Below, piece by piece: positions 7,984 through 64,000 of a stretch of DNA of 64,000 bases. The position numbers were made by a program, and so were the translations under genes. The notes under the pieces were generated by a model that did no database searches, was not told the DNA's origin, and saw only the letters and a program-made list of their open reading frames with translations. Location of the stretch: contig NZ_CP036403.1 of assembly GCF_004322775.1 (NCBI RefSeq), positions 1,612,001 through 1,676,000 on the forward strand, in the 5' to 3' direction. The number at the start of each line of letters is the position of its first letter. The stretch's first letter is position 1. This DNA comes from Ornithinimicrobium sufpigmenti (GTDB lineage Bacteria; Actinomycetota; Actinomycetes; Actinomycetales; Dermatophilaceae).

Positions 7984-8025
7984 GGGCCCCAGGGTATGCG
8001 TCGGCGCCAGCGACTCCTTCAGGGC

Positions 8026-10667: not shown

Positions 10668-10674
10668 GGGCCTC

Positions 10675-45483: not shown

Positions 45484-45511
45484 CGGAGGCACATCCACCT
45501 TGATGCCTCAT

Positions 45512-45582
45512 GGTGGCGTGGCCGAGAGGCGAGGCAACGGCCTGCAAAGCCGTCTACACGGGTTCAAATCCCGTCGCCACCT
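45512..45582 (+). tRNA. tRNA-Cys (GCA)
   Basis: A 71-nt cloverleaf. Acceptor GGTGGCG pairs with CGCCACC, the anticodon loop CTGCAAA gives GCA, and the T-loop TTCAAAT is normal. The discriminator is T, expected for tRNA-Cys. Confidence 0.95.
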
Positions 45583-45609
45583 CGCAACTCAGCAACGCAC
45601 AGTTGTTCC

Positions 45610-45684
45610 GGGCGATTGGCGCAGCGGTAGCGCGCTTCCTTGACACGGAAGAGGTCACTGGTTCGATCCCAGTATCGCCCACCA
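45610..45684 (+). tRNA. tRNA-Val (GAC), CCA encoded
   Basis: Acceptor GGGCGAT (45610-45616) pairs with ATCGCCC (45674-45680), followed by A and an encoded CCA. The anticodon loop TTGACAC gives GAC. The 3' half (from GTTCGATCCC) is the kind of sequence used as an attachment site by tyrosine integrases, and accessory DNA begins right after it. Confidence 0.95.
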
Positions 45685-47770: not shown

Positions 47771-47847
47771 AGCCCGACAAGGGGCGGCACGCCCCGCTCG
47801 GGAAGGTGAGACCTGGAGCCACCAACCACAGTGATGGGGAGCAGGAC

Positions 47848-48558
47848 ATGGCCAAGAAGCAGGACACGGCGGACAGTCAGGGCGGCACCAGCGGGTCATC
47901 CCCGCCCGCTCTAGGAGCCCCCGGGATGTCGGTCGCTGCAGTCCCGGCGCCTCCGAAGCTGCGGCGCCGGCCGGTGATGGCCCTGGCTGGTCTTGGCCTG
48001 GTGGTGATGGGTGCCCTGCTGGTGGTCTGGGTCTACCTGTCCAGCACCGACACCACCAGCGCGGTCGCGGTGCGCGACACGGTGATGCGGGGCGAGACCA
48101 TCACTGCCGCCGATCTGATGACGGTCCAGGTGACCGCAGATCCTGCGTTGCAGATCGTGCCGGCCGCCGACCTGGACGCTTTCATCGGTCAGCGCGCCGC
48201 CCGCGACCTGTCCGCCGGGACGTTGCTGACTCCTGCCGCGGCCGTGCAGGAGGTCCTGCCCGGTGCTGGGGAGTCTGTTGTAGGTCTGGCGTTGACGGCC
48301 GAGCTGATGCCGGGGGAACCGCTGGTGGTGGGGGACCGGGTACGGGTGGTCGCCACCCCCGGTCAGGCCGGTGACCCCGCGACCTTCGAGTCGGCCGACA
48401 CCGTGTTCCCGGCCAACGTGGTCGGGGTGAGCGCCTCTGTGGAGTCCGCGCGGACCGTGGTCTCGGTCCTGGTTGCGGAGCAGGACGCGGCCCAAATCGC
48501 GCGGTGGGCCTCGACGGGCCGGGCGGCGCTGGTGCTGGACAGCCGGGAGGGGGACTGA
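47848..48558 (+). CDS. SAF-domain protein, CpaB/RcpC-like
   Basis: A 236-residue protein with a Ser/Gly/Pro-rich cytoplasmic N-terminus, one membrane segment (VMALAGLGLVVMGALLVVW) and an extracellular SAF domain (VRDTVMRGETITAADLM). SAF/CpaB proteins belong to the Tad secretion machine, where they may contact the pilus outlet or peptidoglycan. The ATG at 47848 has a GGGGAG ribosome-binding site. It is the first gene of the Tad operon and is followed directly by the CpaE-like ATPase. Confidence 0.82.
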   Translation: MAKKQDTADSQGGTSGSSPPALGAPGMSVAAVPAPPKLRRRPVMALAGLGLVVMGALLVVWVYLSSTDTTSAVAVRDTVMRGETITAADLMTVQVTADPALQIVPAADLDAFIGQRAARDLSAGTLLTPAAAVQEVLPGAGESVVGLALTAELMPGEPLVVGDRVRVVATPGQAGDPATFESADTVFPANVVGVSASVESARTVVSVLVAEQDAAQIARWASTGRAALVLDSREGD

Positions 48559-48559
48559 G

Positions 48560-49354
48560 ATGGCGGTCATCGCGCTCGCGTCAGCCTCTGGTTCACCGGG
48601 GGTGACGACGACCGCGCTGGGGTGGGCACTGTCGCGGGGGCGCCCTACCGTGCTGGTCGATGCGGACCCGACCGGTGGCGCGGCCATGCTGGCGGGGTAC
48701 CTGCGTGGTCAGCTGGCGCCGCCGGATGCGCTGCTGGATTTGTGGACCGCTCACCAGCAGGACCAGTTGCGGTCCAGGCTGCCTGGTCTGCTCCTGTCCT
48801 TGCCCGGTTCTCAGGTGGGTCTGTTGCCGGGGACCCGGTCGCACGTCCAGGCCCGGAGCCTGGCCGGGCTGTGGGAGCCGCTGCTGGCGGCGTTGAAGGC
48901 GCTGGAAGGCACGGGCCAGGACGTCATCGTCGACGTGGGCCGTCTTGGCCTGGCCGGGTCACCGGCGCCGTTGCTGCACGGCGCTGACCTGGCCCTGGTG
49001 GTGTGCCGCTCGGACCTGGTGTCCCTGTCCGCGCTGCGTTCCTGGCTGACGAGCCTGCACACCGAGCTGGAGGACGTCGGCGGCGCGTCATCGCTCGGGG
49101 TCGTGATCGTGGGCCCGGGGCGGCCCTACAGCCAGGGCGAGGTGGGCAAGGTCCTGGCCCAGGTGTGCGGCGGCCGGTCCCCGGTCCTGGGGTCGGTGGC
49201 CTGGGACTCGAAAGCCGCTGCGGCGTTCTCTGCCGGCGCCCAGGTGCGGCGCCTGGAATCCAGCAAGCTCGTTCACAGCCTGGAGACCCTGGACGAGGCC
49301 GCCCGCCAACAGATTGTGAGCCATGCCCACGCCCTGACGGGAGCGTCATCGTGA
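48560..49354 (+). CDS. CpaE-like ParA-superfamily protein lacking Walker lysines
   Basis: A 264-residue MinD/ParA-fold protein. The nucleotide loop is ASASGSPGVTTTAL where a deviant Walker A (KGGxGK[ST]T) is expected, and both lysines are replaced. The second strand has VLVDADPTGGAAM, which keeps the aspartates of switch I. The architecture fits CpaE/TadZ, which places Tad pili at a cell site. Loss of the lysines suggests altered or absent ATP hydrolysis. Its ATG at 48560 follows the SAF gene stop almost directly, and its stop overlaps the ATPase gene's GTG. Confidence 0.8.
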   Translation: MAVIALASASGSPGVTTTALGWALSRGRPTVLVDADPTGGAAMLAGYLRGQLAPPDALLDLWTAHQQDQLRSRLPGLLLSLPGSQVGLLPGTRSHVQARSLAGLWEPLLAALKALEGTGQDVIVDVGRLGLAGSPAPLLHGADLALVVCRSDLVSLSALRSWLTSLHTELEDVGGASSLGVVIVGPGRPYSQGEVGKVLAQVCGGRSPVLGSVAWDSKAAAAFSAGAQVRRLESSKLVHSLETLDEAARQQIVSHAHALTGASS

Positions 49355-50994
49355 GTATCGAGGACTACGATCCGGAGCCGGGCGGAGCCATCAGTTCTGA
49401 TCCTGCTGGGCTGCCGCTATTCACCACACCATCCACCCCGGACGGCACGCCGGCGCAGGTGCACGGGCCGTCCCGGGGCCGCCGCCGCGGCGGGTTCACC
49501 TTCCCCCAGGCCACAGCCGTGGACGGTGCTCTCGGCGCGGGCGACGTCCTCACTCAGCCGCAGCCGGTCCCGTCGCAGTCGGAGCGGGTGGGCAATGTGG
49601 TGTCGTTGCCGGCCCGGGAGGTGCGCCGGTCGGGCGAGCACGGCTGGGGGCAGGACGGGGTGGACTGGGAGCTGGTGGCCAGCCTGCGGCAGCAGACCGC
49701 TGACCGGCTCAGCCAGGAAGGCACCCCGACGGGGGAGGATGACCGGCAGGCTCAGCAGGAGCGGGGACGGGCGATCATCACCGAGCTGCTGTCCCGGGAA
49801 GGCACTGAGCGGCTGCGGGCCGGCGAAGCCGCCTGGGATCCGCAGACGCAGGATGCCTTGGCCAGGGCCGTCTTCGATGCCGCGTTCGGGCTGGGACGGT
49901 TGCAGCCCCTGGTCGATGACCCGCAGGTGGAGAACATCATGATCTTCGGCCACGACCTGGTCACGGTCGAGCTGGTCGGTGGTCGGCAGGTGATGGCGCA
50001 GGCGGTGGCTGACTCCGACCAGGAGCTGGTCGACTTCCTGTCTTTCGTGGCCTCCCGCTCCGAGGTCAACGCTCGCCCGTTCTCCCCGTCCCATCCCGAG
50101 CTGCACCTGCGCCTGGACAGCGGTGCCCGGCTCGCGGCGCAGGCGTGGGTGACACCGCGCCCGCAGGTGGTGATCCGTCGGCACCGGCTCACCGAGGTGT
50201 CCCTGGAGGACCTGGTGGACCTGGGCACGTTGAGCCCCGTGGCGGCGTCGTTCCTGGCCGCGGCCGTCCGCTCCGGTCGCTCGATCGTGGTCTCCGGCGC
50301 CCAGGGCGCGGGGAAGACGACGATGGTGCGGGCGCTGTGCGGCGAGATCCCCAAGTACGAGGTGATCGGGACCTTCGAGACCGAGTACGAGCTGCACCTG
50401 CACCAGATGCCCGACCGGCACCCGTACGTGTTCGCCTGGGAGGCACGGCCCGGCTCCGGTGAGGTCGGCCCGGACGGCCGGCAGGCCGGTCAGTACAGCC
50501 TGGACCAGGCCTTGCACGGCAGCTTCCGGATGAACCTGAACCGGCAGATCGTCGGAGAGGTCCGCGGGCCCGAGGCAGCCGCGATGCTCAAGGCCGTCCA
50601 GTCCAGTTCGGGGTCGATCTCCACCACGCACGCCGCCCACGCCGTCGGTGCCCTGGAAAAGCTGGTGACCTGCGTGATGGAGTCCGGGCAGCACGCCACC
50701 CACGACTTCGCGCTGCGCGCCGTCGCCGCCGGTATCGATGTCGTGGTCCACGTCACCAAACAGACGCGACCCGCCGCGGACGGGACCGCTCAGGTGTCCC
50801 GGTTCGTCTCCGAGATCATCGCCGTCACATCCGGGGAGGAGCAGACCGGGTACGCCGTCACCCACGTGTTCAAGGCCGACGCCGGGGCCACCACGGCTCA
50901 CCCGCACGTGCTGCCCGATGACTACCGCGACCTGGCCCGGTTCGGGTTCGACCTGGCCGCGTTCACCCAGGAGCAAGACGGGACCGGGGCATGA
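49351..50994 (+). CDS. CpaF/TadA-type secretion ATPase
   Basis: A 547-residue type II/IV secretion ATPase. The N-terminal ~110 residues are variable and Gln/Pro-rich. The conserved core has LVDDPQVENIMIFG, Walker A VVSGAQGAGKTTMVRAL, an Asp/Glu box at ETEYELHLHQM, and GSISTTHAAHAVGALEKL with the family histidine. It powers assembly of a Flp-type pilus or pseudopilus. The GTG at 49351 overlaps the upstream stop; the gene then overlaps TadB by 4 nt. The catalytic motifs are intact, unlike the CpaE-like neighbour. Confidence 0.9.
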   Translation: MSIEDYDPEPGGAISSDPAGLPLFTTPSTPDGTPAQVHGPSRGRRRGGFTFPQATAVDGALGAGDVLTQPQPVPSQSERVGNVVSLPAREVRRSGEHGWGQDGVDWELVASLRQQTADRLSQEGTPTGEDDRQAQQERGRAIITELLSREGTERLRAGEAAWDPQTQDALARAVFDAAFGLGRLQPLVDDPQVENIMIFGHDLVTVELVGGRQVMAQAVADSDQELVDFLSFVASRSEVNARPFSPSHPELHLRLDSGARLAAQAWVTPRPQVVIRRHRLTEVSLEDLVDLGTLSPVAASFLAAAVRSGRSIVVSGAQGAGKTTMVRALCGEIPKYEVIGTFETEYELHLHQMPDRHPYVFAWEARPGSGEVGPDGRQAGQYSLDQALHGSFRMNLNRQIVGEVRGPEAAAMLKAVQSSSGSISTTHAAHAVGALEKLVTCVMESGQHATHDFALRAVAAGIDVVVHVTKQTRPAADGTAQVSRFVSEIIAVTSGEEQTGYAVTHVFKADAGATTAHPHVLPDDYRDLARFGFDLAAFTQEQDGTGA

Positions 50995-51848
50995 CCACCC
51001 TGCTCGTGGCCCTGGCCGGTGCCCTCATCGCCGGCGGAACTCTCACCCTGGTCCTGGGCCTGCTGGCCCGCCCGGCACCACCGGCCCGGCCCCGTCGATC
51101 CAGCACGCGGCGTACCCGGGTCAGCCCGCGCACCCGGATGCTGCTGGGCATCGGGCTAGCCGTCGGTGCTGTGGTGGCGGTGTCGACGGGGTGGGTGATC
51201 GCCGTGGCGATTGTCCCGTTGGCCCTGGCCGGGATCCCGGTGCTGCTGGCTGCGCCCCCGGCGCAGCGGGAGGTGGCGCGTCTGGAAGCGATGGAGGAGT
51301 GGGTGCGCACCGTGGCCGGGACCCTGGGCGCCGGGGTCGGGCTGGAGCAGGCGCTGCTGCGCTCACTGCGCTCCACCCCCGAGCCGATCAAACCGGAAGT
51401 CACCCGCCTGACGGCGCGGTTACGGGCCCGGTGGGCCACCGAGGACGCCCTGCGCGCGTTCGCCGACGACCTGGACGACCCCACCGGGGACCTGATCGCC
51501 GCGAACCTGGCCCTGGGAGCTCGCCGCCGCGGCGGCGGATTGACCACGGTCCTGGCTGCGCTGGCGGAGTCGGTGGGACAGGACGTGCGGGCCCGCCGCG
51601 AGATCGAGTCCGACCGGGCCAAACCACGAGCCAACGCGCGCCTGATCACCGGCATCACCCTGGCCGTGCTGGCCTTCCTCGCCCTGTCCGGGGACTACAT
51701 CGCCCCCTACGGCAGCCCCGTCGGACAGGTGCTGCTCGGCCTCTTCCTGGCCCTATACGCCGGGATGCTGATCTGGCTGCACACGATGGCCCAGGCCAAA
51801 GCCATGCCGCGCTTCATCGGCGCCACGGTCCGCGAAGGGGCGACATGA
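50991..51848 (+). CDS. TadB-like inner-membrane platform protein
   Basis: A 285-residue T2SSF-domain protein with two N-terminal membrane segments, a cytoplasmic helical domain (EEWVRTVAGTLGAGVGLEQAL, then LGARRRGGGLTTVLAALAES) and two C-terminal segments. This plan matches TadB, which forms the platform that couples the TadA ATPase to pilin. It overlaps the ATPase gene by 4 nt (ATGA) and the TadC gene by 4 nt. Confidence 0.85.
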   Translation: MTTLLVALAGALIAGGTLTLVLGLLARPAPPARPRRSSTRRTRVSPRTRMLLGIGLAVGAVVAVSTGWVIAVAIVPLALAGIPVLLAAPPAQREVARLEAMEEWVRTVAGTLGAGVGLEQALLRSLRSTPEPIKPEVTRLTARLRARWATEDALRAFADDLDDPTGDLIAANLALGARRRGGGLTTVLAALAESVGQDVRARREIESDRAKPRANARLITGITLAVLAFLALSGDYIAPYGSPVGQVLLGLFLALYAGMLIWLHTMAQAKAMPRFIGATVREGAT

Positions 51849-52762
51849 GCGTCCTGCACCTGTTGCTCACCGCTGGCGGCCTGGTCGGTGCTGGCCTCGC
51901 GCTGATCCTGCACCAGCTCACCCCCGCCCACCCGGACCTGGGACAGGCACTGACCCGGCTGTCACCCGCTGGCGCCCCGCAGGCCCAGGCAACGCAGGGC
52001 ACTACCGCGTCCCGGCAGGTAGGGAGTGGTGACGTCCGTGACGTGCTGGGTTCCTGGGGTGCCCGGCACCTGCCCACCGGTCTGTGGGGCAAGGTCGTCG
52101 GTACCGACCTGACCGTGCTGGGGACGACACCGACGCGGTTCTACGGCGAGAAGCTGCTGTACGCCGCCATCGGCATAGTGGCCGGCCCGATCCTGGCCTG
52201 GACGCTCATGTTCTCCTTCTCTATCCCGGTGTACGTCCCCGTCCTGGCCACCCTGGTGCTGGTCGTGGTGCTGTGGTTCATCCCGACCTACAACGTCCTC
52301 ACGGATGCTCGCGAGGCCAGGGTCGAGTTCGCCCGCGCGCTGGGGGCGTTCGTCGACCTGGTCGCCCTGGAGATGGTCTCCGGTTCCGGGCCGCGGCAGG
52401 CGATGGAGGCCGCGGCCGCGGCCGGCGACTCCTGGGTGTTTCGGCGGCTGCGGGAAGAGCTGGCCCGCACCCGCTGGTCCGGCATCACCCCCTGGGACGC
52501 GCTGCGCCACCTGGGCGATGAGATCGACCTGCCCGACCTGCACGAACTGGCCGACATCATGCGCTCCTCCGGTGAGGACGGAGGCCGGGTCTACCCCCAG
52601 CTGAAGGCCCGCGCAGTCAGCATGCGCGCCGCGATCCTGTCCGCGCAGAAGACCCGCGCCAACGAGGTCAGCGAACGGATGACGCTACCGATGACCCTGC
52701 TCGGGCTGATCTTCCTGCTCATCCTCATCACCCCACAGCTGCTGCGCATGGTGGGGAGCTGA
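51845..52762 (+). CDS. TadC-like inner-membrane platform protein
   Basis: A 305-residue T2SSF protein: N-terminal membrane segment, a two-segment hairpin near residues 100-150, a cytoplasmic domain with ALEMVSGSGPRQAMEAAAAAG and a C-terminal segment (LPMTLLGLIFLLILITPQLL). The sequence DIMRSSGEDGGRVYPQLKA matches TadC. It partners TadB in the pilus platform. The ATG at 51845 overlaps the tadB stop. The pilin gene follows after about 75 nt with its own ribosome-binding site. Confidence 0.85.
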   Translation: MSVLHLLLTAGGLVGAGLALILHQLTPAHPDLGQALTRLSPAGAPQAQATQGTTASRQVGSGDVRDVLGSWGARHLPTGLWGKVVGTDLTVLGTTPTRFYGEKLLYAAIGIVAGPILAWTLMFSFSIPVYVPVLATLVLVVVLWFIPTYNVLTDAREARVEFARALGAFVDLVALEMVSGSGPRQAMEAAAAAGDSWVFRRLREELARTRWSGITPWDALRHLGDEIDLPDLHELADIMRSSGEDGGRVYPQLKARAVSMRAAILSAQKTRANEVSERMTLPMTLLGLIFLLILITPQLLRMVGS

Positions 52763-52836
52763 TCGACACGACACCACCGCGCTCGGCCGACCCAGAGAGT
52801 CACAACCAACATCAACTCGCCAAGAAGGGGAACACC

Positions 52837-53037
52837 ATGAAGAAGTCCACACTCCAGCTCAGCGTCCAGGCCGCGACCTACCCGCAGCGCGTCCGGGCAC
52901 AGATCCTGGCCCGCGGGGAACGAGGGGCGATCTCGGTGGAGACCGTCGTCATCGCCCTCGGCCTGTTCGCGCTGGCCACCGTGATCATCGGTCTGCTGAC
53001 CACGTGGGCCACCGGCAAGCTGGCCGGCCTGAACTGA
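52837..53037 (+). CDS. Small Flp-type pilin
   Basis: A 66-residue class III-type prepilin candidate. A positively charged leader ends at ERG, where a prepilin peptidase would cut, followed by AISVETVVIALGLFALA with Glu at position 5 and a hydrophobic helix of about 20 residues. It has a strong AAGAAGGGG ribosome-binding site, the best in the operon, in keeping with high expression of a major subunit. The next gene's ATG shares its stop codon's last base. Confidence 0.8.
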   Translation: MKKSTLQLSVQAATYPQRVRAQILARGERGAISVETVVIALGLFALATVIIGLLTTWATGKLAGLN

Positions 53038-53459
53038 TGACCCACCGGCTCAGGTCGCGGCCCCGACCGGTGGCGCGTGTCCAACGTGCCACCGGCCGGG
53101 ACCGTGGCTCGAGCTCGGTCGAGGTCGTCGTCCTGCTGCCGCTGGTGCTCCTGCTGCTGTTCGCGATGGTGCAGGGCGGGCTGTGGTTCCACGCCCGCGC
53201 GGTCGCCCTCGGCGCGGCCCAGGAAGGAGCCCGCGTCGCCGCCGCCGAGAACTCAACAGCTGGTGCGGGGATCGCGGCAGCCACCTCGTTCGTCGCCGAC
53301 GCCGGCCCCGGCGTCGTGCTCGACCCGGCCGTGGCCGGGTCCCGGTCAACCACGACCGCGACCATCTCCGTCACCGGCCAGGCCCAGAGCCTCATCCCGT
53401 TCCTCAACCCTGCCGTCGTGCAGTCCGCCAGCTTCCCCGTGGAGCGGATCTCGCCATGA
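53037..53459 (+). CDS. TadE-like pseudopilin
   Basis: A 140-residue TadE-domain protein. The leader ends at RDRG, followed by SSSVEVVVLLPLVLLLL (Glu at position 5) and an exported domain with LGAAQEGARVAAAENS. Such minor pilins are thought to prime or tip Flp pili. The ATG overlaps the small pilin stop by one base and the stop overlaps the next gene by 4 nt. Confidence 0.82.
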   Translation: MTHRLRSRPRPVARVQRATGRDRGSSSVEVVVLLPLVLLLLFAMVQGGLWFHARAVALGAAQEGARVAAAENSTAGAGIAAATSFVADAGPGVVLDPAVAGSRSTTTATISVTGQAQSLIPFLNPAVVQSASFPVERISP

Positions 53460-53893
53460 GCACACGCAGCGGCAAGGGTGAACGGGGGGCGGTGTCGGTG
53501 GAACTGGTGATCCTCGGCCCGGTCCTGCTCCTGTTCGTGCTGGTTGTGTTCTTCGCCGGCCGGTACGCCTTGGCGCAGCAGGCGGTGCAGGCCGCCGCAG
53601 CCGAAGCGGCCCGGGCCGCGTCTATCGCCCGCTCCGCCGGCGACGCCTCCGGTGCCGCGACCGCGTCCGCGTCAGCATCGCTGGCCAACCAGGGCGTGCG
53701 CTGCGCGACGCAGTCGGTGACGGTGGACACCAGCGCCTTCGCGACCAGCCCCGGCACTCCTGGGCTGGTCACGGTGACCGTGTCCTGCCAGGTCGACATG
53801 ACGGATCTGGCCTTCCCCGGCATCCCGGGCAACCGCACCCTGCAAGCATCCATGGCCTCGCCGATCGACACCTACCGCTCCCGGCAAGGGTGA
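53456..53893 (+). CDS. TadE-like pseudopilin
   Basis: A 145-residue second TadE-type protein. The cleavage region is GERG|AVSVELVILGPVLLLF with Glu at position 5. The exported part has two cysteines (GVRCATQSV and VTVSCQV) that may form a disulfide. It resembles the preceding gene and is probably a paralogue. The start overlaps the upstream stop by 4 nt. Confidence 0.82.
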   Translation: MSTRSGKGERGAVSVELVILGPVLLLFVLVVFFAGRYALAQQAVQAAAAEAARAASIARSAGDASGAATASASASLANQGVRCATQSVTVDTSAFATSPGTPGLVTVTVSCQVDMTDLAFPGIPGNRTLQASMASPIDTYRSRQG

Positions 53894-53900
53894 GCCGTCC

Positions 53901-54347
53901 ATGACCAGGCACAGACCGAAAGCGACCCGCAGGGACGCCACGGAGCGAGGTTCGGTCAGTGTGTTCGTGATCGTTTTGGCGACCTCGTTCCTGCTCATGG
54001 TCGGCCTGGCCGTCGACGTCGCCGGACACCTGCACGCCATGCAGGAGGCCCGCGCCACCGCCCGCGAGGCCGCCCGGGTCGGCGGGCAAGAGGTCCAGAC
54101 ACCGACCGGGGTCCGCGGCCTGGGTGTGGTGGCCGACCCCGGCCGCGCCGCAGCCGCCGCCGAGGCCTACCTCTACCAGGCCGGGGTCGCCGGGTCGGCA
54201 TCCGTGACCGGCCCGACCAGCATCGCCGTCACCGTCACCTCCACCTACCCGACCAAGTTCTTGTCCATCATCGGCGTCACCAGCTTGAGTGCAACGGGCT
54301 CGGCGCAGGCACGGATCACCCGGTCCGTGGAAGGAGTAGAGCAATGA
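53901..54347 (+). CDS. TadG/TadE-like protein without Glu5
   Basis: A 148-residue protein with the same plan as the two genes before it: charged leader, TERG, then SVSVFVIVLATSFLLMVGLAVD, and an exported domain (AREAARVGGQEVQ). Position 5 is Phe, not Glu, so methylation and normal helix packing of pilins would be changed. It fits TadG-like proteins, which are often not processed. The stop overlaps the LysM-BTAD gene by 4 nt. Confidence 0.78.
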   Translation: MTRHRPKATRRDATERGSVSVFVIVLATSFLLMVGLAVDVAGHLHAMQEARATAREAARVGGQEVQTPTGVRGLGVVADPGRAAAAAEAYLYQAGVAGSASVTGPTSIAVTVTSTYPTKFLSIIGVTSLSATGSAQARITRSVEGVEQ

Positions 54348-57300
54348 GAACCCGCCAACGCCTCACCGGTCTGGGCGCACTGCTCCTCCTGGCCGGCATC
54401 CTGGCCGGGCTACCCGCCCTGCTGCTGACTGTCGGCGGTAACCCGCTACCGGCCAGCGTCCCCAGCATCGACCAGATCCGTGGTGCACTGCTCGCACCCG
54501 ACGACGGCACCCTGGCCCTGACCGGGGCCATCCTGCTCGGCTGGGTCGTCTGGGCCGCGCTCAGCGTCAGCATCGTCATCGAAGCGCTCTGCGCACTGCG
54601 TGGGGTGCGTGCGCCGGCCCTGCCCGTGCTGGCGCTGCCGCAGTTCGGGATGCGACCGGTAGTTATTGCGGCGCTGGCCCTGTTCATCGCCACCCCGACC
54701 GGCGTCAGTACAACGCCTGCCGCGGCCAGCATCGCTCGTGTGGCAGCGACCGCCCCCACTACGCCAGCTGCAGCACCGCTGGCCGCTGCCCCGACCCTCA
54801 CGGACGTGCCCAAGACGCCAGCTCTCACGACAACAACCGCCCCGACAGCAACCGCCCCCGAACAGGAGCGGACGAGCAGGTACGTGGTCTGCCCGGGGGA
54901 CACTCTCTGGTCGATCGCCGAGCGCCACCTAGGGTCGGGCCACGCCTACCCGCTCATCGTCGAGGCCAACCGGGAGCAGTTGACCCGTGGTGCGGACTGG
55001 GTTTTCCCGGGTCAGGTGCTGCAGCTACCGATCCTGTCCCAAGCCGCCGCCGACCAGGCCATGCAGCAACGCCAGCAGGTGGTCGTGCAACCCGGGGACA
55101 CCCTGAGCGCCTTGGCTGCTGAGCACTTGAGCGAAGCCGCCCGGTGGCCCGAGATCTACCACGCCTCCAGCTCCATCGTGCAACCAGACGGGCGCCGCTT
55201 GCAGGACCCTGACCTGATCTACCCCGGATGGCAGCTGAACCTCTCCGCCCCCACCACTGGGTTCAACTTCCCTGACCACGAGGACAAGCTGCGTACCGCC
55301 ACGGGCGATCAGGACAGGACCACCGGTCAAGACACCACGGGTGCCCCCGCCCGGGCCGGAACCACACCGCCGGCAGCCGCGCACACCGACACAGACCCGG
55401 GCGGGCCAGCAAAGGGCCCAGTTCTCACCGCCGCGCGAGCCTCGGCCGTGGCCGGGACGTCCCTTGGCCTGGTCGCACCTGCCGGACACGAAGCACCGTC
55501 TCCGTCCACGGATGGGGACGAAAGCGGGGACATGTCCGGGGAAGCGCAGGGGGTGCACCCCTCGTGGGTGCTGGACGGGATCGTGGGTTCCGGAGCGTTA
55601 CTGGGCGGCGGACTGTTCATGGCCCTGACTCGCGCCCGCCGGACCCAGGCCCGAAAGCGGCGCCCCGGGCGTGCGCTGCCGCCGGCACCAGCGGTGCTGG
55701 CCCCGGTGGACAAGACCCTCCAGACCCAGGGCGCGGCCGCCGCACCCACACTGGAGCACCTCGATGAGGTCCTGCGCCGTCTGGGCGCGTCCCGCGCCCA
55801 CGACGGAGCACCCGCTCTCGCCGCCGCCGAGCTCTCCGCGGCCGGCCTCCTGCTGCACCTGGCCTCCCCGACCAACCTGACCGCCCCGTGGCAGCCCAAC
55901 GCGCACACCGACGACGACACGGGACTGGGCACCGACCAAGACACAGGGGAGGGTCTGGGGTGGCTCCTGCCGGCCGGCACACCAGTGGCAGAGGTGGGCC
56001 CGTTGCCAGCCGACGCGCCAGCGCCCTACCCCCTGCTGGTGACCATCGGCACCGAAGATGACGGAACGACCTGGCTGCTGAACCTAGAGGACTCGGTGGT
56101 GACCCTGACCGGGGCGGGTGAGTACGTAGCCGACCTGGCCCGATACCTGGCCGCCGAGATCGCGGTCAACCCCTGGTCGGTCGGGGTACGCCTGGACTGT
56201 GTCGGCATCGCCGAGCAGGTCACCGGGATGAACCCGGCCCGTCTGCGGGTGGGCGGCCCAGACGCCGTGGACAAACTGCTGACCGAGGCACTAGGGGTGT
56301 TCGACCGTCTCGGGCCCGACTGGAACGTACCCACCGCCCGGGTCCGACAGGAGGCCGAGGACACCTGGCCCGCCCGCGCCGTCCTGATCGAGGCCGCCAC
56401 GGCTTTGGAACGTCCGGCGGGCCGGCACCTGGCGCAGTTGATCACCACTCACCCGGGACGCACCAGTACCAGCCTGCTGCTCACCGGTGCGACCCCGGTC
56501 GTGGCGGGCAGTGCCGGTGGCCTGAGTATCGAGGCGACCGCCACGGGCCGGGTCCTGGTGCCCTCCCTGGGCCTAGACCTCATCGGTGTCGGCCTGACCG
56601 ATGACGAAGCCGCCGGATGCGCGGCCATGCTGGCCCACGCCCGGGACGAGTCGGACATCCCCATACCCCCAGCCGCACCCGCAAGCGCCGCCCCAGATGC
56701 CACGCGCGAGCAAGGATGGCGCACCTGGGCCGACCAGGCTGGCGCGCTGCTGTCCGAGCACACCATCGACCGCCACCGCCCCGACCCCACCAACACGCTC
56801 GACGCGGCCATCCTCGCCAACAGTTTCACCAAGGTCGACGACGCCGCCCATCCTGAAGACGCCACCGCCAACGCCGAAACTCACGAGGTGATTGCCGCCG
56901 CGCCGGCAGATGAGACCACCCAGATTCAACAGACGGGGGAGCCGCGGTACGAACGGCACGACACAGGGGAGAAAGTGGCGGCCACGTTGCTCGAGGCGGA
57001 CGACGACACCTACCAGGACGAGGCGGCAACGACCGCCGCGGACCTGGCCGTGCTCTCCCCGGGGGTGCCGGACACGGTAGGTGAACAGCTGCTACAGGCC
57101 GACCCTGGGCTAGACGCGGACCTGGCCGCCTGGTGGGACGAAGAAGCACGGGTGCCGCGGCTGCGGCTGCTGGGGCCGGTGCGGGCACGGACGTGGGGCC
57201 GGCCGCTGGTTGAGCGCAAGGCCTACGTCACCGAGTTGCTGGCCTACCTGGCGCTGCACCCAGGCGGAGTCACCACCGCCGAGATCGCAGAGGATTTTGG

Positions 57301-57934
57301 CATCACGCAGGCCAAGACACGGGACTACATCAACCGCTGCCGCGAGTGGTTAGGCACCGACCCGGCTAACGGGACCCTTCACCTGCCGCACGCCCAAGAC
57401 AGCCCAGCGGCACGAGAACGCGGCGGCAACGTCTACCAGGTCCTGGGGGTACTCGTCGACGTCGACCTTTTCCGCCGGCTGCGAGTCCGGGCCGAAGCCC
57501 GCGGCGGTCCCGCAGGGATCGCCGACCTCAAGGAAGCGCTGCGTCTGGTCGAAGGGACCCCGTTCGGCCAGTTGCGCCGCGGCGGGTGGGCCTGGCTGTA
57601 CGAGGGTGATCGCATCGATCACCATATGGTCTGCGCGGTGGTCGACGTCGCCCATGTCGTTGCCACCCATGACCTCACCATCGGTGACCTGCCCGGTGCC
57701 CGAGCCGCAGCCCAGGTCGCGCACCTGGCAGCTCCGTATGAGGAGATCACTACCCTCGACCTGGCCGCCATCACCGCCCGAGAGGGCCACACACACCAGG
57801 CCGTCCAGCTTCTGAAGGAGCAGGTGTGCAACCGCACCGACGACCCCGACATGCCACCAGCAGACCTGCCAGAACGCACGCAGCAGATCATCGACCGACG
57901 CCGTTGGTTACAAGACCGCAGCCGAGCCGTCTGA
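54344..57934 (+). CDS. Large LysM and BTAD-domain membrane protein
   Basis: A 1,196-residue protein. About three membrane segments lie in residues 5-125, followed by a Thr/Pro/Ala linker. Two LysM domains start near residues 179 (VVCPGDTLWSIAERHLG) and 246 (VVVQPGDTLSALAAEHL). Another membrane segment is at ~410 (LDGIVGSGALLGGGLFMAL), then a long ~500-residue cytoplasmic region. The C-terminus from ~938 is a BTAD-type winged-helix/TPR unit (VTTAEIAEDFGITQAKTRDYINRCREWLG). LysM would bind peptidoglycan outside and BTAD is typical of SARP regulators inside, so it may link wall and cytoplasm. It is the last gene of the Tad operon. Function inferred. Confidence 0.85.
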   Translation: MRTRQRLTGLGALLLLAGILAGLPALLLTVGGNPLPASVPSIDQIRGALLAPDDGTLALTGAILLGWVVWAALSVSIVIEALCALRGVRAPALPVLALPQFGMRPVVIAALALFIATPTGVSTTPAAASIARVAATAPTTPAAAPLAAAPTLTDVPKTPALTTTTAPTATAPEQERTSRYVVCPGDTLWSIAERHLGSGHAYPLIVEANREQLTRGADWVFPGQVLQLPILSQAAADQAMQQRQQVVVQPGDTLSALAAEHLSEAARWPEIYHASSSIVQPDGRRLQDPDLIYPGWQLNLSAPTTGFNFPDHEDKLRTATGDQDRTTGQDTTGAPARAGTTPPAAAHTDTDPGGPAKGPVLTAARASAVAGTSLGLVAPAGHEAPSPSTDGDESGDMSGEAQGVHPSWVLDGIVGSGALLGGGLFMALTRARRTQARKRRPGRALPPAPAVLAPVDKTLQTQGAAAAPTLEHLDEVLRRLGASRAHDGAPALAAAELSAAGLLLHLASPTNLTAPWQPNAHTDDDTGLGTDQDTGEGLGWLLPAGTPVAEVGPLPADAPAPYPLLVTIGTEDDGTTWLLNLEDSVVTLTGAGEYVADLARYLAAEIAVNPWSVGVRLDCVGIAEQVTGMNPARLRVGGPDAVDKLLTEALGVFDRLGPDWNVPTARVRQEAEDTWPARAVLIEAATALERPAGRHLAQLITTHPGRTSTSLLLTGATPVVAGSAGGLSIEATATGRVLVPSLGLDLIGVGLTDDEAAGCAAMLAHARDESDIPIPPAAPASAAPDATREQGWRTWADQAGALLSEHTIDRHRPDPTNTLDAAILANSFTKVDDAAHPEDATANAETHEVIAAAPADETTQIQQTGEPRYERHDTGEKVAATLLEADDDTYQDEAATTAADLAVLSPGVPDTVGEQLLQADPGLDADLAAWWDEEARVPRLRLLGPVRARTWGRPLVERKAYVTELLAYLALHPGGVTTAEIAEDFGITQAKTRDYINRCREWLGTDPANGTLHLPHAQDSPAARERGGNVYQVLGVLVDVDLFRRLRVRAEARGGPAGIADLKEALRLVEGTPFGQLRRGGWAWLYEGDRIDHHMVCAVVDVAHVVATHDLTIGDLPGARAAAQVAHLAAPYEEITTLDLAAITAREGHTHQAVQLLKEQVCNRTDDPDMPPADLPERTQQIIDRRRWLQDRSRAV

Positions 57935-58308
57935 CGACGCCGACCAGCTCAACCGGCAAGCCGCGGAAGGGCGGTACATCACGACTCCGCCGAATAGAGG
58001 ATGTGTAGGGCTGCCCTTCGCTACCGCCGGCCTGACCCCTGCGTTGCGCCTTGTGTCGTGCCCGGCTGGCCCGAGGGAGCGGGAGGAACACCTAGGGTTG
58101 GAATGGCATCTCCGACCGGTCCTTGCTGCAGGTCGCCTTACCGCCGTACTTAGCCCGTCTGGGCGCTCCGGTCAGGAACTGTGGCGCAGGGTGGACGCGT
58201 CGAAGGTGCTGGCCGTTCTTCCGGACGAGACACGGTCCGACGCTGACCTCCTGGCTCTGCATGGCCGTTCGAGCCAGTGGGCGGCGCCCCTGCGTCTACC
58301 CTGAAGAC
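57935..58308. other. Intergenic gap, no confident gene
   Basis: This 374-nt stretch holds no reading frame with recognisable homology. A short open frame at 58044-58304 has no ribosome-binding site. The only feature seen is the -10 box for the PIN gene at its right end. Base composition begins to fall here. Confidence 0.6.
58297..58302 (+). promoter_or_regulatory. -10 box of probable leaderless promoter
   Basis: TACCCT is followed by GAAGAC and then the ATG at 58309. The six-base spacing fits a leaderless mRNA. No ribosome-binding site is present and no clear -35 is seen. Confidence 0.5.
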
Positions 58309-59073
58309 ATGTTCCTGCTGGATACCAACTTCTTGTCTCCAGAACGGATCCAAGAGCACATCAACGGGCGCTGGTTCACGTCCTCAGTGTCGGCGCAGGA
58401 GCTGCTGGGCATGCAGAAGTCTGCCCACGAGACGGGCTACAGATACGCACTTCCTCTACTTATTCACACTCCCGGCCGCAGTTGGATGGTCGATCACGCG
58501 AAGAAGTTCCCTGTCTCGAAGGGGGCCGATCGTCTGGTTGTGCCTCGTTCCCTTCTTCGCCCTGAGTCGCTCGAATTGGGTCATGCAGCTCTCGCGATCG
58601 CACACGAACGTGGGCACGACGGCCTGCTACGCGTTTATGCCTCGCAGGGGCTCCATCGACGGATGCTGAAACCAGTGCTCGACAAGTGGGAGTTCCTGCG
58701 CAATCAAATCGATGCAGTCCTTCCGCTTGACGAGGAAATAGCCGCCCACGGCGTGCTTCTTGCGGACCTATTCGTCAAAGCGCAAATCCACGTTAAAGGG
58801 ACGAGGCGAAACACCATGAACGATATGTTGGTGGCTGCCACCTCCCAAGTTACGGGGCTACCTCTGGTGACGGACGACAGCCAGCTAGGGAGGTTCTATC
58901 AGCAGCACGGCTGGTCGGTCGTCGTACGGAACTCAATCATGACAGCCACTCCGAGCGCGGCGGACATAGCAGGGAACGACTCTCAGGTGCGGCGCTCGGG
59001 ATCGCGGGGGTACATCAATCGTCCTGTGCACATGAGGAAGCACATCGACTACAATCGACCCCCCGTCCGTTAG
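58309..59073 (+). CDS. PIN-domain-like RNase
   Basis: A 254-residue protein. It opens MFLLDTNFL, the first acidic residue of PIN nucleases (Asp5). A glutamate in SAQELLG and aspartates in NTMNDMLVAATS and LPLVTDDSQLG fit the remaining active-site positions. It is longer than VapC toxins by ~110 residues, and no small antitoxin gene precedes it. It probably cleaves RNA. Its own leaderless promoter and the 514-nt gap before the ATPase genes leave open whether it works with them. The base composition is lower in GC than the pilus operon. Confidence 0.72.
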   Translation: MFLLDTNFLSPERIQEHINGRWFTSSVSAQELLGMQKSAHETGYRYALPLLIHTPGRSWMVDHAKKFPVSKGADRLVVPRSLLRPESLELGHAALAIAHERGHDGLLRVYASQGLHRRMLKPVLDKWEFLRNQIDAVLPLDEEIAAHGVLLADLFVKAQIHVKGTRRNTMNDMLVAATSQVTGLPLVTDDSQLGRFYQQHGWSVVVRNSIMTATPSAADIAGNDSQVRRSGSRGYINRPVHMRKHIDYNRPPVR

Positions 59074-59587
59074 GACAGATCTCGGAGCGTCGCTTCCAGT
59101 GGGTGATGCAGCGGTTCAGGGGCAGCGGTGCCGGCTATGTTGTCGTGCAACGGAGGACGGGTTGGTCGTGAGATAGCCGCTGCATCTGGACGGACCTCTC
59201 TCGCCATCGATACACCCGCGCGCATGACTCGGCCGAGTCGTGCGCGCTCCCAAGCGCATGCCTGTGACCCGCACGGTGCCGTGGGCAGTACGTCTCGCAT
59301 CCGCCGATGTCCGGAGGGTTGGCGGGCGCCCCAGTAGCGCCCGGCACGCCGAGTACAGGCCGACGGTCGCGTTCCGACGGAGCCCCGACACGGCGATGGG
59401 CGAAGGCTTAACGAACTGCTGCTCGCGGTCGGACATGCCAGTTGCAGACGGTGGGCGAGGTCGGTACGTCCCGACGGGTACCGGCGAGAAAGGGATCGAC
59501 GCGCACGGAAACACGCTTGCCAGCCGACGTTTGGACGGCTGCAGAGTGCTTCTCCCCCCACGTGGCATAGTACGTGTGCAGGCGCAC
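59074..59587. other. Gap or long leader before the ATPase gene
   Basis: 514 nt without a recognisable gene. The ATPase frame is open from 59240, but residues upstream of the ATG at 59588 are Arg/Pro-rich and look non-coding. A CATAGT sequence at 59566-59571 might be a -10 box. A remnant of another element cannot be excluded. Confidence 0.5.
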
Positions 59588-61840
59588 ATGGAGCATGCGA
59601 CCATTAGTGCCTTGCCTCTAAGGAACACACACCCGCCGCTCCACGCGCTTCGAGGGGGAAACTTGCAGAAACTGGAAGTGCCCGCGCCTGGGCAGGACGT
59701 CGTCCTACGGCTGCGCGGCAGCCAGCAGCAGTACACAGTCACTGGCCGTCTGAACTCCACATCGATCGATAAGGCATCCGTGACGCTGGAGGACGGGCGC
59801 GTGCTCCACATACCGTTCTCGGCGGTCCTCAGTATGCATGTGGCCAGTCGGCCCCCTGCGCCACCACTCCACACCGCTACAGCGAGCCGACCGGCGCTGA
59901 CCAACATCGCTGGCATTCTCGACCTCCTTGAGAAGCGCACTGGGCGACTCCAGCCGGACTTCTTGCGGAAGGTGAATGAAGCGCTACTGGCTCTGGAGCA
60001 CGAATCGGGCGGAGCCCTCTCTCCTCAAGTGAACAGCCTTCGCACCACAGTTGAGTTGATGCTTCGCCGTCGCCAAACACAGGGGGTCGAAAGGTCATGG
60101 CCGCTGCGCAGCGAGCTCGAACGGCACATAAGCAATTACCAGGGCCAGCGACCGAACCTGACTCCTGGATCCATAGAGGCACGCATTCATGCCATCATGC
60201 AGTCCTTAGCTGAAGCTGACGAGACAGCATGGACAAAATTTGCCATGCGATACGAACCTCAACCCCGAATCGTGGTCAAGCACACTGTACATGTGACCGT
60301 GGAAGCGGGGGGCGAGTTCGTCCTTCCTATTCGCGTGGCTCTAGACCGAGCGAGCGTTCCGGCACGACAGCTCGCCGTACGAATTGACCGCTGTCGCTCC
60401 CTTTCCGTCATCGGCACCTCGCCCGTTCTCGATGAACTACGCCCGGGCGACACCTCCGTGATCGAAATCCGCATGAAAGACAAACGGCGCCAGGGGGCGC
60501 GCGGCCAACTGAAAGTCACCGCCCATTTGATATATCAAGGCGTCGTGGCGGATGCGCTGGAAACACCGACCCAGGATCTCGCGATCCACATTCGCACACC
60601 TGAAGTGCACAAGCCTATTCATAACCCGTTCAGAGACTACGCGGGGGGCGTACCGGTCGACGACGCTCGCATGTTTTTCGGGCGCGACGGTCTTGTAGAC
60701 GAGATAACCGATCTACTGAGCGAGCCGACATCTGGCCGCTGCTTCGCGCTCTACGGACAGAAACGCACAGGAAAGACCAGCCTGATGGAGCAGGTCAAGC
60801 GCCAGTTGGTAGAGCGCGGAGTCATCGTCGCGGACGTCTCAATGGGGACCATCGACCGGCATGACTTAACTGCGAGCTTCATCGCGGAGGTGCTCGACGA
60901 ATACCGTCTGCAGGTCGGAGAAAAGCTTCGAGCCGATGTTTTTGAGAACCTGTTGACGCGCTGGCCCTCCCAAAGTGAGGTACAACGAGCACCATTACGG
61001 AGTTTCCGTCTAGCAGTCAGAGCGGCCAAGGGCCTGCTTATACAGTCGGGAATGGACTCACCCAAGTTCGCTATCGTTGCTGACGAATTCACGTACCTCT
61101 ATGAGATTCTGCGGCGGCCGAGAGTCCAAGTCAGCGAGAATAACCAGTTGCGGGACTTCATGCGACAATGGAAGGGCCTCCTCGAGGCTCGCCTTTTCTC
61201 AGCGCTTCTTGTGGGCCAGGATACGATGCCGAACTTCCTCAGAGCTTTCCCCAACGAATTCAGTGTCATGCGCACGAGTCGACTGGACTACCTAACGCAC
61301 GAAGAGACAATGAAACTCGCGGAACTTCCCACCCTCCACGAGGATGGTTCCTCGCGGTTTAACGGATATAGCCTTTCCTACGTTCCTTCCTATACAGATG
61401 GGCATCCGTTCTTCACACAGATACTCTGCGATCGGCTCATCGCAATCGCGAATGCCGAGAATCGTGTTGACTTCGCTGAGTCGGACATCGAGCGCGCCGT
61501 TGAATCACTGATTGAAGGGCCCCGCGCTTTGGACTATCACATCTTCGACTGTCTTCTATCCGCGGACAACACAGGAGTGCTCCTGGACGACCTCCGCGAC
61601 GAGTTTTCCAGTCCGGATGAAGATGAAGTGAGCGACACATCCTTCGAGGTGCTCCGACGCATTGCTGTCGTGTCCGGTGGCCAAAACACCCCCGTGCCAG
61701 TTGATGAGCTGGCACTGTCGCACGACCAGGAACGGGCCTATAAGGACCTCTGCGTCCGCCATGTCGTCAATGAGAAGGACGGGCGAGCGCAGATTCGCGT
61801 GCTGCTCTTCGCCGAATATTTGAGGAGAAACTGCTCATGA
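59588..61840 (+). CDS. P-loop ATPase (AAA/STAND-like), first gene of paired module
   Basis: A ~750-residue protein of no named family. Residues ~1-350 lack known motifs but contain beta-rich segments, the second like an Ig-type fold (HTVHVTVEAGGEFVLPIRVAL). NPFRDYAGGVPVDDARMFFGRD leads into the ATPase. Walker A is YGQKRTGKTSLMEQ near residue 390, Walker B FAIVADEFTYLYE, and ALLVGQDTMPNFLRAFPNEF is a likely sensor. A winged-helix-like C-terminus follows (IFDCLLSADNTGVLLDDLRDEF). The layout resembles STAND/AAA_22 sensors in defence systems. The start is uncertain; ATG 59588 is chosen, GTG 59576 is possible. The last 4 nt overlap the next gene. Confidence 0.75.
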   Translation: MEHATISALPLRNTHPPLHALRGGNLQKLEVPAPGQDVVLRLRGSQQQYTVTGRLNSTSIDKASVTLEDGRVLHIPFSAVLSMHVASRPPAPPLHTATASRPALTNIAGILDLLEKRTGRLQPDFLRKVNEALLALEHESGGALSPQVNSLRTTVELMLRRRQTQGVERSWPLRSELERHISNYQGQRPNLTPGSIEARIHAIMQSLAEADETAWTKFAMRYEPQPRIVVKHTVHVTVEAGGEFVLPIRVALDRASVPARQLAVRIDRCRSLSVIGTSPVLDELRPGDTSVIEIRMKDKRRQGARGQLKVTAHLIYQGVVADALETPTQDLAIHIRTPEVHKPIHNPFRDYAGGVPVDDARMFFGRDGLVDEITDLLSEPTSGRCFALYGQKRTGKTSLMEQVKRQLVERGVIVADVSMGTIDRHDLTASFIAEVLDEYRLQVGEKLRADVFENLLTRWPSQSEVQRAPLRSFRLAVRAAKGLLIQSGMDSPKFAIVADEFTYLYEILRRPRVQVSENNQLRDFMRQWKGLLEARLFSALLVGQDTMPNFLRAFPNEFSVMRTSRLDYLTHEETMKLAELPTLHEDGSSRFNGYSLSYVPSYTDGHPFFTQILCDRLIAIANAENRVDFAESDIERAVESLIEGPRALDYHIFDCLLSADNTGVLLDDLRDEFSSPDEDEVSDTSFEVLRRIAVVSGGQNTPVPVDELALSHDQERAYKDLCVRHVVNEKDGRAQIRVLLFAEYLRRNCS

Positions 61841-63183
61841 CTGGACGTCTGGACTCGGTAGAGCGGCTAGCTGGACTTCTACAAGGAGGCAACGTTGCGC
61901 TCCATGGTGGACCGGGGTACGGCAAGTCGCGGTTGGCCGACCTTGTCGAGGTGCGGCTGCAGAGCATGGAGCGCCAGGTGGCGCGGTTAGACATGTCTAC
62001 CTTGACCTCTGGGTGTGCCTTCTTGAGCGAGCTGGCTAGCCATCTGGGGATGACGGTCACCGAAGCAAACGAAGGGCGCAGCTTACACGAAGCCTGGCGA
62101 AGTGTGCGCGCGGAGTTGACCCACCGGGAAGCGCTCTGGACTCTCATTCTGGATCAGTTCGATGCGGTTGGGAGATGGCCAGATGCGGCTCAATTCCTGC
62201 CTATCATGCGGGAACTTATTCACCGCCCGAGGATTCTCCACTGCAACGCAATGATTGTATCGAGGAGATCGCTCGAATCTATTGAGGTCGGGGTCGTAGG
62301 TATATCGACTTTGGCCAGCGTCTGCTTCGTGGAGTACCTGGGCCTTGTGGAGTTTGAAGACCTGACCGCAGATTGGGAGCAGGCGGGTGAGTGCTCACAT
62401 GAGGATTTGCGAGCATGCCTCGAGTGGTCTGGCGGGCATCCCGTGCTTGTGAATTACTGGCTGGGAGCCCGCCCCGATAAGCATGGTGGACCTGCAGTTG
62501 ACAATCAAGTGGCGCACGTTATGGGGCGCCTGGTGGGGTATCTAGATGAACTGGAACTGTTGGCACCTGCGGCCCAGTTGATCTTGGGCCCCGTGGTCGA
62601 GGATCTATTTCGAGAGCGTTTACGCTTGGAGTCCATGGGGATCGTTGGTACGGGTGAGGGTGGTAGGCCGGCGCTGGCCGAACATGAGGTCTTTTGCGAT
62701 CTAGTCAGACTCAACACACGTGACATGAATCCGTGGGGCGTACTGGGGGCGGCAGAAGTTCGTGCGCGCTCAATAGTCGAATTCGTGTTCAGTTCTGCCC
62801 TGGGTTCAGATTGGGATGATGAGGTCAAAGCCAAGGACGGCATGGTCCGTCAGACCTTTGATCGCGCCGCAGTTCTTATGCAGGAGGACCAGAGGAAGTT
62901 TGGTCGGAGTGTGCATTGGTTGGCCTACACCTACCCACATGACTTGTGGGTGATAATCTCCCGGCACTGGGATTTGTTTGCCCCCGTTTTTACGGGAGGA
63001 GACAAGAAGTATTGGCAAACTCGGTTCGCCGCGCTGGCTAAATATCGTACCCCAGTGGCACACAATAGAAGCATTGTGTTGTCTTCAGACGAGCGTGTCC
63101 AGGGTCGCATTTACTCGAAGGAGATCGTGAGCCGAGTGGATGACTACCTTACTTCTAATTCAGTCAAGACGCTGGAGGTGTGA
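61837..63183 (+). CDS. P-loop ATPase with C-terminal HEPN (Swt1-like) domain
   Basis: A 448-residue protein. Walker A is LHGGPGYGKSRL (residues 24-31), and Walker B is LWTLILDQFDAVG near 100-107. A helical middle follows. The C-terminal ~80 residues match the Swt1-type HEPN pattern: DLWVIISRHWDLFAPVF, then RTPVAHNR at 404-411 with an Arg-x4-His motif (R404, H409). HEPN domains with this motif are usually RNases. The ATG overlaps the preceding ATPase gene by 4 nt, so the pair is translated together. I infer that nucleotide-state change in the ATPases releases RNA cleavage. No relative is characterised to my knowledge. Confidence 0.78.
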   Translation: MTGRLDSVERLAGLLQGGNVALHGGPGYGKSRLADLVEVRLQSMERQVARLDMSTLTSGCAFLSELASHLGMTVTEANEGRSLHEAWRSVRAELTHREALWTLILDQFDAVGRWPDAAQFLPIMRELIHRPRILHCNAMIVSRRSLESIEVGVVGISTLASVCFVEYLGLVEFEDLTADWEQAGECSHEDLRACLEWSGGHPVLVNYWLGARPDKHGGPAVDNQVAHVMGRLVGYLDELELLAPAAQLILGPVVEDLFRERLRLESMGIVGTGEGGRPALAEHEVFCDLVRLNTRDMNPWGVLGAAEVRARSIVEFVFSSALGSDWDDEVKAKDGMVRQTFDRAAVLMQEDQRKFGRSVHWLAYTYPHDLWVIISRHWDLFAPVFTGGDKKYWQTRFAALAKYRTPVAHNRSIVLSSDERVQGRIYSKEIVSRVDDYLTSNSVKTLEV

Positions 63184-63492
63184 ATTCGACCCACGCGCCA
63201 GCAGTCTAGGACGCGGCGTATGGCGAGTTGCCACTTGCAGAACCGTGCCACGGTTGCGGGTGTTCATGTCTACGCACCGGGCGCTCTTCGCAAACGCACG
63301 TCTGGCGAGGTGCCCCATCGAAGCGTCCCGGCCCCCTGGGGCCAAGCCTCAGATCAGAGCATCCGCAACTGCCGCGAGGGGTGAAGTGCCTAATTGGGGG
63401 GCTTGCCGGCGATGATGACGGCCTGAGGGCCTCCCTCACCTGCTAGAGGCTCGCGCTCCACCCGGGCCACGTGGGTCCGGAGTTCGGCCAAT
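63184..63492. other. Intergenic gap between HEPN gene and IS
   Basis: 309 nt with no confident gene. GGCCCC-CT-GGGGCC (63330-63343) and TGAGGG-CCT-CCCTCA (63424-63438) are short inverted repeats that might end transcription weakly. The left end of the IS should lie in the last ~50 nt, but its inverted repeat cannot be located without the other end. Confidence 0.5.
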
Positions 63493-64000
63493 TTAGTGCG
63501 CTTGTGAGCGGTCCTTGATGCGGTCGAGGGCCTCGGCGAGGTCGTCGGGGACTGGGTCGACGGCGGTGATGGTGTGCTCGCCAGCGGCGATGGTGAAGGT
63601 GCGGTAGCGGCGGGCGGTCTTGACGAAGCGCTTGATGGACCAGCTGGTGGCCTGCTCGACCCAGTGCGCGACGGCCATGGCCGCGAACACGATGGTCAGG
63701 TGGGCGTCGATGGAGTCCTGCTTGCGGTGGTAGATCGGTCGGGCGCGCAGGTCGGACTTGGCCATGCGGAAGGACCGCTCGATCTGGAACAGGCGTCGGT
63801 AGGAGCCGATGACCTGCTCGGCGTCGGGGTCGGGCAGGTTGGTGACGTAGGCCTTCCAGCCCGCCAGGGCCTTCGCCTTCTCCTCTAGCTCGCGGTTCAC
63901 CGAGCGGGTGCCACCAGCGAGCTGGACGAACCGGTTGCGCTTGACCGACGCCTTGCCGGCCACGGCTGCCTCAGCCTTGGCGACCTGGGCCTCGATGCCC
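63493..64000 (-). CDS. IS1634-like transposase, C-terminal part
   Basis: The last ~169 residues of an IS4-superfamily, IS1634-like transposase. The frame is open through the window edge, so the N-terminus lies beyond 64000. The C-terminal DDE signature appears as SYRRLFQIERSFRMAKSDL: Tyr, Glu and Lys at the Y-x2-R-x3-E-x6-K spacing, with Leu in place of Arg. HRKQDSIDAHLTIVFAAMAVAHWVE is typical of the group. Whether the element is intact is unknown. Its GC content matches the chromosome rather than the ATPase block beside it. Confidence 0.85.
   Translation of the reverse strand, partial: GIEAQVAKAEAAVAGKASVKRNRFVQLAGGTRSVNRELEEKAKALAGWKAYVTNLPDPDAEQVIGSYRRLFQIERSFRMAKSDLRARPIYHRKQDSIDAHLTIVFAAMAVAHWVEQATSWSIKRFVKTARRYRTFTIAAGEHTITAVDPVPDDLAEALDRIKDRSQAH

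Follow-up and report, generated by a model that had tools for sequence, protein, structure and literature searches.

A compact pair of overlapping STAND/AAA+ ATPase genes, one with a predicted HEPN effector, carried by an insert in the Ornithinimicrobium sufpigmenti genome

We analysed a stretch of 64,000 nucleotides of the Ornithinimicrobium sufpigmenti genome (contig NZ_CP036403.1, positions 1,612,001 to 1,676,000), hereafter the window, and found that two overlapping genes within it, A and B, encode a pair of STAND/AAA+ ATPases, the second of which ends in a predicted Swt1-like HEPN ribonuclease (RNase) domain. With moderate confidence, we read the pair as a two-protein counter-invader switch carried by an insert in a probably conjugative gene cluster. 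The genes and the domains of their products are listed below; residues of A are counted from the ATG at 59588, and pLDDT is the per-residue confidence score of the AlphaFold models.

59663..61840, + strand: gene A, sensor-type STAND/AAA+ ATPase (725 amino acids from the TTG at 59663; 750 if the ATG at 59588 is used)
61837..63183, + strand: gene B, STAND/AAA+ ATPase with a predicted C-terminal HEPN domain (448 amino acids; open reading frame)
59696..59842, + strand: A residues 37-85, five-strand SH3/Sm-like barrel (AlphaFold, 10-residue blocks with pLDDT 74-94; fold named from strand order only)
59891..60247, + strand: A residues 102-220, five helices (AlphaFold model), located where long relatives have their TPR-bearing region
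60287..60595, + strand: A residues 234-336, Ig-like beta sandwich (AlphaFold model; fold name inferred)
60632..61507, + strand: A residues 349-640, AAA+ core (Walker A 390-398, Walker B 493-500)
61619..61795, + strand: A residues 678-736, winged-helix-like domain (secondary structure; ORC2 and CED-4 alignments reach residue 750)
61837..62706, + strand: B residues 1-290, ORC/TnsC-like AAA+ with an intact Walker A (GGPGYGKS), Q in place of E in Walker B (LILDQF) and an SRR at 142-144
62734..63177, + strand: B residues 300-447, helical throughout and predicted to be a Swt1-like HEPN domain (HEPN_Swt1 and PDC-M34B matches, model)
63046..63063, + strand: B R404-x4-H409, predicted RNase active site (motif and conservation)

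The original prediction, made from this DNA without database searches, described two ATPase genes overlapping by 4 nt, and this description holds: both reading frames are open, the junction reads ATGA with the start of B inside the stop of A, and GAGGAG precedes the ATG of B. The frame given for A was likewise right, but its start probably was not. The ATG at 59588 has no clear ribosome site, and the TTG at 59663 follows a Shine-Dalgarno-like GAGGGGG (59652-59658) 4 nt upstream. Because of this site, because the A protein of one relative (P0020) begins roughly at the same position and because residues 1-27 are modelled with pLDDT <50, translation of A probably starts at TTG 59663 rather than at ATG 59588.

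Relatives were found by scanning one genome per species, 84,980 species in all, with patterns from A alone. The 32 A loci belong, by their record titles, to Actinomycetota, Gammaproteobacteria, Planctomycetes, Cyanobacteria, Chloroflexi, Bacteroidia, Firmicutes and other groups. In all 30 loci that could be assessed, a B-like open reading frame (ORF; E<0.01) stands next to the A-like one; in the other two (L052 and L072) the contig ends in or just after A. Failure of the genes to co-occur elsewhere had been named beforehand as grounds for abandoning the original prediction, and the opposite was found. Distances in the A and B trees were correlated (mirror-tree r=0.843, 0 of 2000 permutations, 26 pairs) in a comparison covering the window and 25 of the 30 loci; L044 and L060 (A in several ORFs), L063 (contig end) and L065 and L067 (short or broken) were omitted. 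Both trees mix phyla. These data support that A and B travel as a unit. A scan of genome contigs with B gave no match, and searches of plasmid and viral contigs gave none either. One fusion protein joining the ATPase part of A to B in a single frame (P0072) was not counted as proof of coupling, since a single frame error across the 4-nt overlap would give the same fusion.

The effector end of B differs among these loci. A HEPN motif lies near the C-terminus of 24 of the 30 B-like ORFs, and in the Actinomadura locus L068 a GT4-conflict domain (PF20706, 2.3e-136) replaces HEPN. Among the remaining B-like ORFs, that of L063 is cut by the contig end and those of L065 and L067 are broken or split. 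The GT4-bearing partner ATPase of L068 (11524-13818) has a degenerate Walker A (GHRGTGRT), and the A protein of the same locus (7424-11527) carries an extra N-terminal NACHT domain (2.8e-10). In a Blastococcus locus (L049, 6815-13231), a third, small ORF overlaps B; inspected by eye, it has hydrophobic stretches, and part of the A protein resembles a cold-shock domain.

Protein A was originally described as a long uncharacterised N-terminal region followed by a STAND/AAA-like ATPase with intact Walker motifs. The ATPase is borne out by a Pfam match to AAA_16 (4e-10) and by the residues themselves: 62 of 62 aligned rows share the same Walker A (G390, G395, K396) and Walker B (D499, E500) residues. 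A winged-helix-like domain lies C-terminal to them, as in STAND/AAA+ ATPases. The N-terminal region can now be modelled as a barrel, helices and a beta sandwich. The barrel is common to the N-termini of 18 long A proteins (hhalign 95.2%, E 2.8e-8, with the helical region as negative control), and TPR matches were obtained in the long relatives L058, L053, L064 and L055. Outside the group of the window, unbroken and uncut A proteins measure 732-1808 amino acids, all but one at least 1153. Structure-search lists held no Sm-like or HEPN match; the ATPase fills these lists, so neither fold is excluded.

For protein B, a match to AAA_22 (3.9e-6) marks the ATPase, and the A profile also matches B-like ORFs (for example that of L057, 5e-8). 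Conservation was read from two alignments, A4 and A5. The latter comprises B itself (P0002) and 23 relatives, that is, 24 of the 31 B proteins of the window and the 30 loci, including 4 without HEPN; it omits L043, L044, L046, L047 and L064, which are near kept rows, as well as L063 and L067. R404 and H409 are kept in 20 of 20 HEPN-bearing rows of A5, a divergent alignment, and in 14 of 14 covering rows of A4, so the R404-x4-H409 motif is more than a chance occurrence. At E<=0.01, HEPN_Swt1 (PF18731) matched 13 of the 24 proteins in A5, with a best value of 8.4e-10; P0002 was outside this set, and the relative P0011 carries this domain. Residues 300-422 of B match the PADLOC candidate-defence model PDC-M34B (2.3e-8), which is presumably a HEPN family, because in L058 it spans the same stretch as HEPN_Swt1. 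Helices are modelled throughout residues 301-447. In the ATPase, 23 of the 24 proteins in A5 keep the Walker A lysine, the exception being the GT4-bearing one with R, and so do all 15 rows of A4 that cover the site. Position 107 of Walker B is E in 21 rows of A5, Q in 2 (the window and L042) and D in the GT4-bearing one; in A4 it is E in 9 rows and Q in 7. R143, of the SRR, is R in 16 of 16 rows of A4 and 23 of 24 of A5.

The original prediction also placed the genes in a low-GC patch of accessory DNA, next to a PIN-domain gene and an insertion sequence, and each of these statements was confirmed. GC content is 0.57-0.59 at 60-63 kb against 0.66-0.77 (mean 0.72) across 1-58 kb, and the neighbours encode a PIN domain (PF01850, 2e-5) and an IS1634 transposase (5.5e-37). 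Accessory DNA is evident from comparison of the two copies of the surrounding gene cluster in this genome, the second of which has no insert.

57895..64000, no strand assigned: left end of an insert of ~35 kb holding the A/B pair (two-copy comparison; it runs to ~93066, outside the window)
46399..57894, + strand: aligned backbone of a duplicated, probably conjugative cluster (T2SSE, T2SSF, TadE and LysM genes; the LysM gene ends at 57934)

Alignment of the window copy with copy 1 (aligned blocks 363289-374524 and 374829-386771 of the genome) stops at 57894 and resumes at window coordinate 93067, so that ~35.2 kb here faces ~0.3 kb there. A 499-amino-acid cluster gene (69-97% identical) lies within ~5 kb in 6 of 6 genus relatives and 39.7 kb away in the window copy, so the window copy gained the insert. 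A and B sit at its left end. Three tRNA genes (45411-45684) stand just ahead of the aligned part of the cluster, which we consider probably conjugative. Between the copies (window 46399-57894 plus continuation, genome 363289-386771), a right block of ~10 kb is 92% identical and the other blocks 67-79%, a difference that may reflect recombination between them or separate acquisition. Other cargo of the insert includes IS1634, IS110, a PemK/MazF-type toxin gene and a PDC-S11 candidate, the last a near full-length match (4.1e-114; L075:13505-14656, window coordinate ~76004-77155).

Neither gene was found in the other 30 of the 31 genus genomes beyond short weak partial matches, those to the ATPase part of A occurring in two genomes (E 3e-4). 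When 186 genomes of the family were searched with B, and 396 of the phylum with B and A, the only full-length match came from the window genome; these alignment searches scored the best 9, 4 or 2 candidates per genome, so relatives could be missed. The insert, this absence from the rest of the genus and the phylum-mixed trees together mark the pair as mobile. The PIN-domain gene lies at 58309-59073, upstream of A on the same strand. We considered it as a third component of the module and left it out because its product had no BLAST match (E<=0.01) among the ORFs of the 32 relative loci. No BLAST cluster of flanking ORFs occurred in >3 of these loci, except for a single cluster made up of 4 antisense ORFs that lie over A.

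The flanks were also compared with PADLOC models, using ORFs of 150-900 amino acids drawn at random up to 50,000 residues (137 of 160 from flanks, 134 of 223 from control stretches, which were contig starts). The 137 flank ORFs, from 19 relatives, matched 148 models at 1e-10; the 134 control ORFs, which 17 of these 19 genomes supplied, matched 14, including mad2, mad3, AriA, DndA and SspA. Among 25 of the 148 flank models listed were Gabija GajA/GajB, MzaC, DRT and PDC types, most of them from a single ORF each. The presence of known or candidate defence genes near the pair in some relatives is supported at the level of profile matches. The original reading of a coupled sensor-like ATPase and ATPase-HEPN protein is likewise supported.

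If the pair is a counter-invader switch, A would sense a cue from phage or competing DNA and, loaded with ATP, assemble with B through the AAA+ cores, as the STAND and ORC relatives and the conserved SRR of B suggest. B probably binds ATP and hydrolyses it poorly, because Walker A is kept and Walker B reads DQ instead of DE; it would act as an assembling subunit that gathers HEPN domains. These domains, once paired, would cut RNA in the manner of HEPN enzymes, and growth would stop or the cell die. We infer the ATP-driven assembly, HEPN dimerisation and RNA cleavage by analogy.

Several alternatives were weighed against this. In the first, the pair would be an addiction or maintenance module of the toxin-antitoxin style, in which A restrains the HEPN RNase of B, mobile DNA is retained and any protection is a side effect. 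The tight gene overlap, the HEPN effector, the insert in a probably conjugative cluster and the PemK/MazF-type toxin gene within the same insert all fit such a module. However, A is a large multi-domain ATPase unlike a small labile antitoxin, long relatives carry TPR regions, GT4 can replace HEPN, and defence genes flank the pair in some relatives; we regard addiction as unlikely. A bolder form of the switch, which we rate as distinctly improbable, would be a resistosome-like machine in which A, a sensor binding nucleic acid through its Sm-like domain, drives a hydrolysis-poor B and HEPN fires only in a mixed ring. Such a machine would have spread over many phyla with swappable effectors, and its slim actinobacterial form would have lost the TPR receptor and read nucleic acid or conjugation directly.

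The best structural neighbours of the ATPase cores are ORC/Cdc6, TnsC and MuB, as would befit a transposition or replication pair whose ORC/TnsC-like cores serve DNA targeting or element replication with HEPN as an accessory, a role we hold to be very unlikely. Sm-like domains also serve RNA processing. So do HEPN domains, for instance that of eukaryotic Swt1 (Anantharaman et al. 2013, PMC3710099), and the pair might on these grounds be a host regulator of stress or RNA quality control with no part in conflict; its location in an insert, the phylum-mixed trees and its absence from the other 30 genus genomes, save two short weak matches to the A-type ATPase, make this highly improbable.

Counter-invasion by a sensor and a HEPN effector remains our preferred reading, and the following points weigh against it. 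The defence role itself is a prediction. The HEPN_Swt1 match of B itself is weak (E 0.023, 15.4 bits against a cut-off of 27.5), R404 and H409 being as originally described; searches with the B model found no structure match for the HEPN part, and residues 406-413, over the catalytic loop, have pLDDT <50. In two actinobacterial loci (L045 and L049) the B ORF ends before any HEPN. An arginine finger in A is uncertain because R565 varies: 46 of 62 rows have arginine there, 14 lysine and 2 histidine. The Pfam model nSTAND2 (PF20702) matched neither A (P0001) nor B (P0002) at E<=1. Further along the cluster, the match of a TrbL-like gene falls below the Pfam cut-off. Finally, mad2, mad3 and AriA were matched in flanks and controls alike, and the flank comparison counts redundant profile models rather than genes or loci, so the comparison gives an indication and not a rate.

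As far as we found, the two-STAND operon with HEPN or GT4 effectors has been a prediction on paper since 2021. The pair described here is compact (725 + 448 amino acids) next to the long A proteins of relatives, and it should therefore suit cloning and purification. Direct mutants could probe whether a split sensor/effector ATPase pair acts like a bacterial resistosome, and the locus could show what the effector-side ATPase needs an intact Walker A for.

Avs/AVAST and NLR-type STAND sensors carry effector, ATPase and sensor in one protein. The pair resembles them in combining a sensor, a STAND switch and a toxic effector and differs in that sensor and effector belong to separate ATPases. No known PADLOC or NCBIfam system matched over most of A or B. 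Weak DS8_antiphage and pepcterm_ATPase matches were taken as shared ATPase sequence, PDC-M34B is a short family (147-192 positions) without an ATPase, and neither A nor B matched any further PDC-M34 model. We recognised no published test of such a two-STAND pair, although our coverage of the subscription literature was thin and one may exist.

The original prediction did not recognise this exact combination, and its suggestion of a new one was not sustained. Table 1 of Anantharaman et al. (2013, PMC3710099) lists Swt1-like HEPN domains, described as 'mostly active', with STAND-ATPase, TPR and S1 domains; the same HEPN class is joined there to a STAND ATPase, the entry being a domain architecture in which a second STAND partner is unstated. 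Closer still, Kaur et al. (2021, PMC8195603) predicted mobile two-gene operons in which both products are STAND NTPases and one of them bears a HEPN or GT4 effector. In their account of the nSTAND2 operon, the effector-bearing STAND has eroded NTP-binding motifs, both proteins have a conserved arginine finger, and the STAND cores are nearer to CR-ATPases, DAP3 and RNA12 than to classic STAND. Two adjacent genes, STAND cores in both, mobility and an effector fused to one protein are shared with the pair, and the relative L068 shows the GT4 form with an eroded Walker A. The pair would work like this predicted operon.

There are also differences. The published effector NTPase is eroded, whereas in B Walker A is intact and only Walker B is altered, to DQ; section 15 of that paper (PMC8195603) describes neither the SH3/Sm-like barrel nor the beta sandwich seen in A. 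Among scanned relatives, PF20702 gave matches below its cut-off in B of L067 and B of the genome of L071, reached E<=0.01 in 1 of 29 relative genomes and exceeded the cut-off in 0. Further PF20702 searches gave 0 of 246 and 0 of 198 genomes, with 14 controls silent too, and a protein that does carry the domain (P0085) was rejected as a member because its C-terminus differs by eye. Because the effector NTPase of the pair is not eroded and PF20702 is unmatched, we hold back formal nSTAND2 membership. One possibility is that the definition in print is broader than its wording; the other is that the HEPN branch described here is sister to the published operon. The plan itself was already predicted in 2021 and is apparently untested; what is new here is a compact variant with an intact Walker A on the effector side.

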